The position numbers were made by a program, and so were the translations under genes. A stretch of DNA of 64,000 nucleotides. Origin: Shouchella clausii. Its GTDB lineage: Bacteria; Bacillota; Bacilli; Bacillales; Bacillaceae_D. The DNA lies in contig NZ_CP019985.1 in the NCBI RefSeq assembly GCF_002250115.1, positions 2,666,001 through 2,730,000 on the forward strand. The letters are read 5' to 3'. This document shows positions 2,818-5,912 of the stretch, piece after piece (position 1 is the first letter of the stretch; each line of letters starts with the position of its first letter). The notes under the pieces were generated by a model. That model saw nothing but the letters and a program-made list of their open reading frames with translations. It was not told the origin of the DNA and did no database searches.

Positions 2818-3068
2818 TGAACGTCGATTTTTATACGAAAAAAGGGTGTCCCTTGTGCGACAAGGGGTACGCATTGCTAAAAGAATTAGCCGATTGTTAC
2901 TCGCTTGTAATTCAATGCCATGACATTTATCAGGATGATGTGCTTTTAGAGAAGTACCAACTTAAAATCCCTGTTGTTTGTATAGACGGCCAAGAAATTG
3001 GCTACGGCTTATTAGAGAAAGAGTTGCTCCAAAAACAGATCGAACGCATTCGTTCAATAAAGCAGTAA
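2817..3068 (+). CDS. glutaredoxin-family thiol protein
   Basis: 83 residues with a thioredoxin fold pattern: beta strand NVDFYTKKGCPLC with a CPLC redox motif (residues 10-13), then KIPVVCIDGQEIGYG, which holds the cis-Pro of glutaredoxin-like proteins. It probably reduces disulfides or mixed thiols in the cytoplasm; the partner is unknown. Start is the ATG overlapping the sigL stop, so it is translationally coupled. Similar short glutaredoxin-like genes sit just before cggR in other Bacillaceae. No signal peptide. Confidence 0.85.
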   Translation: MNVDFYTKKGCPLCDKGYALLKELADCYSLVIQCHDIYQDDVLLEKYQLKIPVVCIDGQEIGYGLLEKELLQKQIERIRSIKQ

Positions 3069-3121
3069 GCATGTACAAATGGAAAGGCGACGTCCTGCTG
3101 ACAACACATCGAAAAACATAA

Positions 3122-3158
3122 AGACTGCCTGTTCCCATTTAACGGGGATAGGCAGTTT
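3122..3158. terminator. stem-loop after sigL-glutaredoxin unit
   Basis: ACTGCC (3124-3129) pairs with GGCAGT (3151-3156), with further internal pairing of TCCC and GGGA. A short T tract follows on the plus strand. Likely the 3' end of the sigL transcript, also facing the convergent phr gene. Confidence 0.5.
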
Positions 3159-3194
3159 CAGTCAAAAAGAGAACCGATTGGCTCTCTAGTAAAA

Positions 3195-3521
3195 TTAAGC
3201 TTTTGGCTTTGCCGTGTGAATGAAAGTAATATCGCCTTTATCATGATCGCCAATAGAAGTAATATCGCCTTTATCATGATCGCCAATAGAAGTAATATCG
3301 CCTTTATCATGGTCGCCAATAGAAGTAATATCGCCTTTATCACGGTCGTCAATAGAAGTAATATCGCCTTGATCACTGCTGTCAATGAAAGTAATGTCTC
3401 CTTTATCTCGGCTATTCATTTCACTGTTAGCCTGTGTGTTTGTAAAAACAACAAATGAAGCTGCTGCGATTAAAGAGACGCCAAGTGAAACGACCAACTT
3501 TTTCTTAAACAACTGAATCAA
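3195..3521 (-). CDS. Phr-type secreted signal-peptide precursor with six tandem repeats
   Basis: 108 residues: a positively charged start (MIQLFKKK), a hydrophobic export segment (about 9-26), then residues 37-102 made only of six 11-residue units. The core is D-[K/Q]-G-D-I-T-[S/F]-I; the unit starts are Ser37, Ser48, Asp59, Asp70, Asp81 and Asp92. Ordinary Phr precursors (40-60 residues) carry one 5-6 residue pheromone near the C-terminus; this one could release several copies. It starts inside the 3' end of the upstream rap gene (17-nt overlap), the standard rap-phr arrangement. By analogy the peptide is exported by Sec, cut outside, re-imported by Opp, and inhibits the neighbouring Rap. 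The mature sequence is not known; DKGDIT is the most conserved candidate. Confidence 0.85.
   Translation of the reverse strand: MIQLFKKKLVVSLGVSLIAAASFVVFTNTQANSEMNSRDKGDITFIDSSDQGDITSIDDRDKGDITSIGDHDKGDITSIGDHDKGDITSIGDHDKGDITFIHTAKPKA
3216..3413 (-). repeat. six 33-bp in-frame tandem repeats inside phr
   Basis: Exactly 198 nt, six 33-nt units each coding for 11 residues. The four downstream units (toward 3216) are nearly identical at DNA level, while the two nearest the signal peptide have diverged (TCACTGCTG and TCTCGGCTA variants), a pattern expected from recent unit duplication at one end. Confidence 0.95.
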
Positions 3522-4599
3522 CTCCTAAAGTATGTTGGTATAAGCGTGCACCATGGGCCACTTTCATATATTTCAATGCCAGTTTAGTATTTCCTTCCTT
3601 TTCTGCAAAGTGAGCGGCTTCTTCAGCAAGTTCACTTACCTCAAAGTCCATTCCTTCTTTTTGGAGCTGTGCAATCGCTTCGTCAACCAAATCATAATTT
3701 TTTTCGATGTGAAGGCCTTCCGTAAACAAGCAGCGTGCGTTGTATTCTTTGCTTTTGTAGTAGGCGGCACCTGCTTTTGCAATTTGGAAATGGGGGAGGG
3801 CTTCTTCGATTTTTCCTTGATTAAAGAGGACGTTACTTAAATTGTATCTAGATTTGGCACCGAAAATCGTGTTTTTGTGCTCAGGAATATCAAGCGCTCG
3901 TTTAAAATACGTTTCCGCCTCGTTAAACTTTTTTTGGCCTTGCTTGTTTAAACCTAGCGTCCGCAACACTTGTCCATATACAATTGGAATGCCTTTAGCA
4001 CGCTCTAACGCCTGCTTTAGGATAGCTTCGCCTTTTTCAGGGTTGTTTAATTCTTGATGAATACAAGCAGTGATAATTTGGCAGTTTATCGCTGGCTCAT
4101 GATATTGAAGCCGATCGAATAGGACGTTTGCTTGTTCCATGTAGGACGAAGCAATCAAATAATGGTTGAGACGATAATAAACAAGGCCAATATATTGATA
4201 AAATTCCGCTTCCTCCGCCTCATCGTTTACGTATTCTAGTAGTCGTTCGGCTTTGCGAAACAGCTTTACAGCAGACCGGTACCGTTCTTGCGTAAACTCG
4301 TATTGGCCACTAACAAAGTAATAAAGATACTTGAGAAGGTCATCGATTTCGGTCTTTTCAGAAATCGGCTCTATTTCCTCAGGGCATTCGTTTTTATCGT
4401 AACGGCTGACTAAAATCTGATGTTTAAATTCGACTAGTGAGTAGAAGGCCATAAACTTGTCGCTTGGATCCATCGCTGGTAAAAGCTGTTTGACCTCTTC
4501 TTTTAAAATAATCGCCTGTTCATATGACTTAGAAAGAAGGCAACTATACCATTCTGCGATTTTTGCCCCAACCGATTCAGAACGTATCGTCCTCCCCAT
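3505..4599 (-). CDS. Rap-family TPR regulator (response regulator aspartate phosphatase family)
   Basis: 364 residues, the typical Rap length. The N-terminal three-helix bundle (VGAKIAEWYSCLLSKSYEQAIILKEEV) is the phosphatase/effector part, followed by a series of TPR repeats from about residue 95 to 350 (FYQYIGLVYYRLNHYLIASSYMEQA; FNEAETYFKRALDIPE; ALPHFQIAKAG) that bind the Phr peptide. Rap proteins dephosphorylate Spo0F or sequester DNA-binding regulators such as ComA; which applies here cannot be told. Start ATG at 4599 is preceded by AGGAGG at 4613-4608. The phr gene overlaps its 3' end. It is divergent from cggR. Confidence 0.92.
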   Translation of the reverse strand: MGRTIRSESVGAKIAEWYSCLLSKSYEQAIILKEEVKQLLPAMDPSDKFMAFYSLVEFKHQILVSRYDKNECPEEIEPISEKTEIDDLLKYLYYFVSGQYEFTQERYRSAVKLFRKAERLLEYVNDEAEEAEFYQYIGLVYYRLNHYLIASSYMEQANVLFDRLQYHEPAINCQIITACIHQELNNPEKGEAILKQALERAKGIPIVYGQVLRTLGLNKQGQKKFNEAETYFKRALDIPEHKNTIFGAKSRYNLSNVLFNQGKIEEALPHFQIAKAGAAYYKSKEYNARCLFTEGLHIEKNYDLVDEAIAQLQKEGMDFEVSELAEEAAHFAEKEGNTKLALKYMKVAHGARLYQHTLGVDSVV

Positions 4600-4778
4600 A
4601 AAACCAACCTCCTAATGAATCCCATTTATATTCATATAATAGCAAAGAAAATAGGACTTGCCTACTATTATAAGAATTTTCCCCAAAGTTATAAAATGTT
4701 ATCTCTGAAAACAAAATAGGAGCATGTTATTTTTGATTTTAACAATGGCTTGCCATTATCAAACGGAGGATGTTTTAG

Positions 4779-4807
4779 TTGTCTGTTTTCGACTTCCTTG
4801 GTACAAT
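4779..4807 (+). promoter_or_regulatory. cggR-gapA operon promoter
   Basis: TTGTCT (4779-4784), 17-nt spacer, TACAAT (4802-4807). Transcription would start near 4814, about 23 nt upstream of the CggR operator. Confidence 0.65.
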
Positions 4808-4836
4808 ACAAGTGTAGTGAATGTTTTTGCTCTAAC

Positions 4837-4875
4837 CGGGACATAATATGTCTGCGAGGGACGTTATATGTCCCG
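4837..4875 (+). promoter_or_regulatory. CggR operator (two tandem half-sites)
   Basis: CGGGACATAATATGTC (4837-4852) is followed by AGGGACGTTATATGTCCCG (4857-4875), spaced 20 nt apart. Each has the GGGAC...TGTC core of the known B. subtilis CggR operator, and the position downstream of the promoter and before cggR also matches. Repressor bound here blocks elongation until fructose-1,6-bisphosphate accumulates. Confidence 0.88.
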
Positions 4876-4895
4876 ATAAACGGAGGAGGTGTTAC

Positions 4896-5912
4896 ATGCG
4901 GACGCTTATTAATCTGCAAAGACAAATTGTTCCCGAATTAATGGAAACAATGGCAAAGCGTTATCGCTTGCTGCAATATATCCGTTTAATGCAGCCAATC
5001 GGACGCAGAAGCCTAGCAACCAATTTGCAAACCTCCGAACGTATCGTCCGTGGGGAAGTGACGCTTCTTAAAGATCAGGGGCTCATTGAACTGACGACGG
5101 CTGGCATGCGCCTAACTGAAGCAGGCGAATCGTTGTTTTTAGAGCTTGCCGATATGATGGCAGAGCTGCTTGGGCATCGCCGGCTGGAAGAAAAGCTGGA
5201 AGAAAAGCTTGGCGTCGGCCAGGCGATTGTTGTCGCTGGCGATAGCGACGAAGAAGAATGGGTGAAGCAGGAGTTAGGTAGAGCTTGCGTCGATGAATTG
5301 AAACGTGTGGCTAAAAAAGGCGACGTCTTCGCCGTAATGGGCGGCACAACGCTTGCCGCAGTAGCAAATATGGTCACGCCAGATGAGACGCTAGCGACAA
5401 CGACGTTCGTGCCCGCTAGAGGCGGGTTGGGCGAAAAAGTTGAAATCCAGGCTAATACCATTAGTGCTGAGTTTGCCAGACGCTCAGGAGCTTCTTACCG
5501 GCTGCTGCACGTTCCTGATCAATTAAGCGAAGAAGCATACCATTCACTTGTATTGGAACGATCAGTTAGGGAAATCCTAGATGTGATTACGTCTTCTGCG
5601 GTTGTCATGCATGGCATCGGCGATGCGAGGCGAATGGCAGCTAGGCGCGATTCTGGTCAGCCGTTTATCGAGACATTGAAACGGGAAGAAGCGGTAGCAG
5701 AAGCGTTCGGCTATTACTTCAATGCAAATGGAGAGATTATCCACAAGCAGCGAACAATTGGCTTGCAATTAGGCGAGCTGGAAGGCAAGTACGTTATTTC
5801 AATCGCTGGCGGGCATACGAAAGCAAATGCGATTCTCGCTTATATGAAGAATCGGCCAAGTGATGTACTTGTAACAGACGAAGGGGCAGCCAGACGGCTG
5901 TTATCCGAGTAA
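4896..5912 (+). CDS. cggR: central glycolytic genes repressor CggR
   Basis: 338 residues, close to the 340 of B. subtilis CggR. It represses the gapA-pgk-tpiA-gpmI-eno operon and itself and is released by fructose-1,6-bisphosphate. The N-terminal winged HTH (about 20-70) includes LLQYIRLMQPIGRRSLATNLQTSERIVRGEV, almost the family signature; the SorC-type sugar-phosphate-binding domain follows (VFAVMGGTTLAAVANM; the segment ending in AGGHTKANAI). An upstream in-frame ATG at 4848 falls inside the operator; the ATG at 4896 has AGGAGG 6 nt before it and matches the family start (RTLINLQRQIVPEL), so it was chosen. Confidence 0.95.
   Translation: MRTLINLQRQIVPELMETMAKRYRLLQYIRLMQPIGRRSLATNLQTSERIVRGEVTLLKDQGLIELTTAGMRLTEAGESLFLELADMMAELLGHRRLEEKLEEKLGVGQAIVVAGDSDEEEWVKQELGRACVDELKRVAKKGDVFAVMGGTTLAAVANMVTPDETLATTTFVPARGGLGEKVEIQANTISAEFARRSGASYRLLHVPDQLSEEAYHSLVLERSVREILDVITSSAVVMHGIGDARRMAARRDSGQPFIETLKREEAVAEAFGYYFNANGEIIHKQRTIGLQLGELEGKYVISIAGGHTKANAILAYMKNRPSDVLVTDEGAARRLLSE

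Follow-up and report, generated by a model that had tools for sequence, protein, structure and literature searches.

Two overlapping genes on the reverse strand of the window, the 64-kb stretch of Shouchella clausii DNA analysed here, very probably form a Rap–Phr quorum-sensing pair in which the Phr precursor has grown through tandem copying of a unit made of core and spacer (Table 1). The receptor matches the RapH_N profile (PF18801; 1.3e-23, 83.1 bits against a cut-off of 27) and TPR_12 (48.3 bits against a cut-off of 30.1). Its nearest solved structures in phmmer comparisons are RapI (9.3e-30), RapJ (1.9e-28), Rap3T (5.1e-28) and RapF (7.1e-28), and judged by its sequence the product of 3505-4599 is a true Rap. 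The genome is a single 4.52-Mb contig and encodes six Raps of full length, besides five partial matches. The possibility that a close relative of the window Rap is carried on a plasmid was rejected, as the 239 matching plasmid records all show less than 60% identity.

In the open reading frame at 3195-3521 a signal peptide precedes six units of 11 residues each, and the first-pass annotation, which had described a rap gene followed by an overlapping secreted precursor of this form, is borne out by the reading frame and by the RapH_N and TPR matches. A short secreted product whose gene overlaps the 3' end of rap is the layout of Phr precursors; secretion was judged by eye from the hydrophobic stretch. 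Translation more likely starts at the second TTG, at 3512, than at the TTG at 3521, because the AGGAG motif within the end of rap (3526-3522) stands 9 nt ahead of the former and directly abuts the latter. The protein from TTG 3512 begins MFKKK. Neither of two patterns for a sigma-H-type promoter, based on the general consensus, matched within the final 400 nt of rap at any of five loci.

Table 1. Features of the rap–phr locus, in window coordinates
Feature	Position	Strand	Basis or remark
rap, 364-aa Rap-family TPR receptor	3505..4599	-	RapH_N and TPR profiles, phmmer
phr, predicted secreted multi-copy pheromone precursor	3195..3512	-	105 aa from the preferred TTG, stop included in coordinates; ORF list
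Predicted signal peptide MFKKKLVVSLGVSLIAAASFVVFTNTQA	3429..3512	-	Positively charged start and a hydrophobic run with a best 12-residue mean of 2.52; cut after A placed by eye
Six cores (DKGDIT, DQGDIT, then DKGDIT four times) with 5-residue spacers	3225..3407	-	TRF, unit DNA
Positions of the individual cores	3407-3390, 3374-3357, 3341-3324, 3308-3291, 3275-3258, 3242-3225	-	Codon counting from the ORF
Variant core DQGDIT, unit 2	3357..3374	-	Second codon CAA, AAA in the other units
C-terminal tail FIHTAKPKA after the last core	3198..3224	-	ORF translation
Terminator-like hairpin 3' of phr	3168..3187	-	Weak: 3 such sites in 3000-4900 on both strands, against a shuffle mean of 1.4

The repeat array and its relatives

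Tandem Repeats Finder (TRF) reports a 33-bp array at 3224-3407 with 5.6 copies, 91% matches and a score of 275; only two other arrays are reported in the window, scoring 54 and 51. The spacers read, in order, FIDSS, SIDDR, SIGDH, SIGDH and SIGDH, before the tail. With six units, each bearing one copy of the candidate pheromone, the precursor belongs with the multi-copy Phrs, defined by two or more copies per precursor. No core is C-terminal: all six are internal and the last bears the nine-residue tail. Lysine occupies the second position, where pheromones carry a positive residue, in five of the six cores and glutamine takes its place in unit 2. A chance repeat or a reading on the wrong strand could be set aside, since nearly every difference between the cores of the units is synonymous when read in the phr frame. 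To see whether the array came from a phage, 50,697 phage records were searched with the Phr by tblastn; no hit reached E 0.01, a weak result given the low-complexity masking of so repeat-rich a query.

The same locus was found in the nearest relatives that carry the same Rap, and the surrounding 7 kb are collinear in all three, at about 94-97% identity. The window has six units, Shouchella rhizosphaerae DSM 21911 three (Rap 99% identical to the window Rap), S. clausii AKU0647 four (98%) and S. tritolerans FJAT-45399 four (98%); these counts come from four genomes, taken as one per species, a sample too small for statements on intraspecific variation. The expectation that copy number can differ between related genomes is thus upheld at the four syntenic loci found. 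Assembly collapse behind the lower counts is unlikely, as all units of the three- and four-copy arrays differ in DNA. Units 4 and 5 of the window are identical over their 33 bases and unit 3 is one silent base away, in keeping with the near-identity from which the first reading had proposed slippage. Across the arrays, the outermost units can be matched to each other and those between them differ, the window having three SIGDH units; this pattern of matching edges and differing interior fits slippage or unequal exchange.

Selection was assessed on 13 units (6+3+4) from three distinct arrays, 11 of them distinct in DNA; locus L014 was dropped, its phr DNA being identical to that of L013. Over all pairs of the 11 distinct units the six core codons give pS 0.387 and pN 0.013. 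Among the eight inner units, pS is 0.409 and pN 0.017 in the core; in the five spacer codons the values are 0.349 and 0.265. The sole amino-acid replacement in the cores of all four arrays is the K-to-Q change of the window, every core of the three other syntenic arrays being DKGDIT. On these codon counts the hexapeptide DKGDIT is under purifying selection and the spacers are not. The isoleucine two residues past the core is unchanged in 13 of 13 units and is perhaps part of the cutting site.

Beyond this locus, we collected full-length Raps (330 aa or more, counted from the last upstream stop) from 11 of 13 genomes of the genus, which gave 80 proteins, 77 of them distinct; broken or partial copies were excluded, as were the duplicate loci L039-L047, and some copies are absent from the set. 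A clear Phr accompanies 73 of the 80, and seven Raps have no clear phr. By a 4-mer rule 22 of the 73 Phrs are multi-copy, four at the window's locus and 18 elsewhere, one of them (L086) assigned two copies manually; L008 and L089, with two-copy Phrs by eye next to incomplete Raps, fall outside the 73. Five copies occur at L078 and L079 and three at L074, L076 and L083-L085. Six copies also occur at L073 (genome G005), with KHEFTH units in a 135-aa precursor, and at L065 (G009), with KHDFH units in an 89-aa precursor. A quick tree requires at least three switches between single and multiple copies, and because the window's clade is nested there within single-copy Phrs, the array probably expanded recently. 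Two other genera of the family yielded 23 Rap ends from 26 loci and, among these, 15 recognisable Phrs, all of which look single-copy.

The Phr of the sister paralogue (L022 and L023) consists of one core and a tail, EKVDIT-FLPTASSHLT. It resembles the last unit and tail of the window, whose FIHTAKPKA is similar in its first residues to FLPTASSHLT, and for this reason the arrangement of one core plus tail is probably the original one. At L010, in the window genome, and at L098 (G006), most of the paralogous rap is deleted and the phr, whose core is EKVDIT, is intact and appears to be an orphan pheromone gene; its receptor, intact at L022 and L023, shares 74% identity with the window Rap. The Raps at L006, L072, L015, L033, L034 and L075 are each followed by two phr-like genes that differ in candidate pheromone, and at L008, also in the window genome, a partial Rap match precedes a Phr-like ORF that contains DKIDT twice.

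Candidate pheromone and receptor contacts

Related Raps have single-copy Phrs with the C-terminal sequences DKGDMT (L018), RDKADIS (L017), RDKVDIS (L015), RDKAEMT (L016) and DKVEIS (L002). Since these precursors stop right after a motif like the repeated core, the comparison suggests that the mature peptide finishes in T or S and singles out DKGDIT as the best pheromone candidate. No printed record of the string DKGDIT was found in the literature text searched. The first-pass annotation had remarked on S or F after DIT and on Q for K in one unit, both present in the translation, and had suggested that a single gene might send several slightly different signals. The first half of this suggestion loses ground, as the S/F difference sits in the spacer outside the conserved core and need not alter the signal. 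The K-to-Q change falls at the usual positive position and may weaken or alter the ligand, but Phrs with Gln there occur in a neighbouring genus, so that a second signal is possible.

In RapF the basic second residue of the pheromone is bound by Asp194 (PMC3601957). At the aligned position the window Rap carries Glu, an Asp-to-Glu exchange known from RapG (PMC3601957). In an alignment to RapF and RapJ the 80 Raps of the genus have Glu in 72 cases, Asp in three and Ile in five. Among the 73 Raps with a clear Phr, Lys is present in the Phr in 68 of 68 cases beside Glu or Asp, against none of five beside Ile, where presence means a Lys anywhere within the final 12 residues or the repeated body (65 cases) or in internal cores recognised by eye (L022, L023 and L086). 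The five Ile Raps form one clade, so that the pairing amounts to a single independent event and carries no statistical weight by itself; a sign test, run with a looser Lys trait (any Lys after residue 22), gave p 1. The Phrs of this clade (L063, L064, L066, L069 and L075) lack Lys in the last 12 residues and have ends such as YVQPIAGH, a co-change of receptor and signal. In a neighbouring genus, Raps with Glu at position 194 (L116, L117 and L121) are accompanied by Phrs that end in GQANTGR, with Gln in the usual Lys place and no Lys in the end region, a change of the same kind as in unit 2 of the window. DQGDIT is probably a weakened or altered ligand; it may also be active, because the GQANTGR Phrs beside Glu194 Raps indicate that Lys is not strictly needed.

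Several features of the receptor depart from the textbook picture of a Rap. RapF Asn227, described as a strictly conserved anchor (PMC3601957), is Thr in the window Rap, and 18 of the 80 full-length Raps of the genus have Asn there. Only Tyr152 is identical among the eight named anchors, and both Asp194 and Asp338 are replaced by Glu. Domain content, sequence similarity and gene layout keep the protein in the family despite the Thr, and its mode of binding may differ in detail. Arg is found at RapF positions 226 and 303 (the latter RapJ 300) and Lys at 263, a basic setting that would suit acidic peptide residues; the Arg at 303/RapJ 300 in particular would suit an acidic first position, as in DK. 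A K300E exchange in RapJ abolishes sensitivity to PhrC (PMC3601965).

The catalytic Gln of Spo0F phosphatases (RapH Gln47) is Asp in the window Rap, which for this reason is not called a Spo0F phosphatase here. None of the 80 Raps of the genus has Gln at this position (64 Asp, 15 Glu and one Lys); it is present in three of 22 further Raps aligned from other genera of the family (L120, L125 and L127). In vitro, RapH Q47E is active and Q47N is dead (PMC3035606), and Raps with Glu at position 47 could accordingly be phosphatases, the shorter Asp making this doubtful for those that have it. The absence of Gln47 across the genus raises the question of which targets these Raps act on.

Signal dose and competing explanations

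Known Phr precursors were said in the first-pass annotation to carry a single pheromone, a claim that the literature contradicts. Repeats of the autoinducer within one gene, identical or varied, were described for Rap–Phr systems by Even-Tov et al. in 2016 (PMC5199041), and a 2022 survey of RRNPPA propeptides found multi-copy forms with up to six copies and suggested that they act as 'chatterers' (PMC9765709). Two double-copy precursors have been tested at the bench (PMC11343458). Probably the closest published case is found in PMC5199041, where S11A Fig is named under 'autoinducer duplications' for the six Raps of one B. clausii genome; it resembles the window in species group and phenomenon, and is perhaps the same gene in another strain. 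The chatterers share with the window the class of repeat, a number of copies that reaches six at most, the idea of a raised pheromone-to-receptor ratio and the occurrence of one deviating copy, but copy-number differences at one locus among close relatives are not treated in the accessible part of that survey (PMC9765709). The available text of PMC10075063 holds nothing on repeated pheromones.

Experimental precedent for maturation comes from two phage-type systems (PMC11343458). Phr105 of phage phi105, the partner of Rap105, resembles the window Phr in its identical copies (ERPVGT), short spacer and acidic-basic start, comparable with D-K, and both of its copies were shown to be released by extracellular proteases; it has two copies, the second C-terminal, whereas the window Phr has six, none of them C-terminal, and a nine-residue tail. 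Phr3T, paired with Rap3T, carries two putative pheromones per precursor that were shown to be released and bind with different affinities; unlike the window Phr, it belongs to a phage system and its two copies are not identical. Supernatants of B. subtilis matured the internal as well as the C-terminal copies of Phr3T and Phr105, and WprA was important for the internal ones (PMC11343458). Since some published Phrs lack a C-terminal copy altogether, according to the same source, a C-terminal pheromone is a common rather than a defining feature of Phrs.

In the most likely scheme, the window precursor would be exported by Sec, and extracellular proteases, probably of the subtilisin type, would cut before the D and after the T of every unit; each copy would need cuts on both sides, because none is C-terminal. 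DKGDIT would then be imported by an oligopeptide permease and inhibit the Rap, releasing the target response regulator, and more units would yield more pheromone per transcript. Candidate machinery is encoded in the window genome, with five peptidase S8 and 15 SBP_bac_5 matches.

We tentatively propose, as one possibility rather than the expected outcome, that the array acts as a genetically encoded dial for signal dose. Slippage would change the number of identical pheromones (three, four or six beside near-identical receptors) and so shift the quorum threshold between lineages, leaving signal and receptor unchanged, and an occasional variant unit such as DQGDIT would open a second signal.

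Two other explanations accept a multi-copy Phr and differ in what the copies do. Copy number may drift by slippage without effect, one processed copy being enough and the conservation of the core reflecting recent duplication and homogenisation. The near-identical DNA of window units 3-5 and the persistence of both single- and multi-copy Phrs in the genus are consistent with such drift, which is possible but not probable; yet silent core differences are plentiful (pS 0.387) and replacements nearly absent, which argues that the units are old enough to have diverged and that the protein has been held, and spacers of the same history did diverge. Somewhat more doubtful is the explanation that the array is an intermediate of diversification, which mainly lets new variants arise, with DQGDIT as a nascent second signal, as intact copies go on serving the old receptor. 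This was proposed by Even-Tov et al. for RapK2, where R or K at position 2 sets which of the RapK2 variants responds and a mixed double-copy Phr exists (PMC5199041), and it is in line with the Gln-for-Lys Phrs beside Glu194 Raps of the neighbouring genus (L116, L117 and L121). However, just one of the 13 unit cores differs in protein, the three other syntenic arrays are uniform, and such strong conservation of the core favours an identical dose over variety. Finally, it is very improbable that the repeat protein is itself the product, for example as a structural or surface peptide whose place after rap is incidental: it is longer than single-copy Phrs (mostly 35-45 aa) and has no C-terminal copy, but its start overlaps the end of rap, its ribosome site lies inside rap, and related Raps have short Phrs in the same position that end in the same motif.

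The analysis contributes codon-level support for the hexapeptide, a syntenic locus at which copy number differs, and a pairing of receptor with peptide. In the multi-copy Phr literature, as far as its accessible text goes, a rise of signal dose with copy number has been proposed and not measured. The comparison points to the likely pheromone, DKGDIT, and to its contact on the receptor, and a syntenic locus with three, four or six copies, receptors that are 98-99% identical and selection confined to the core would make the dose idea behind the 'chatterers' directly testable.
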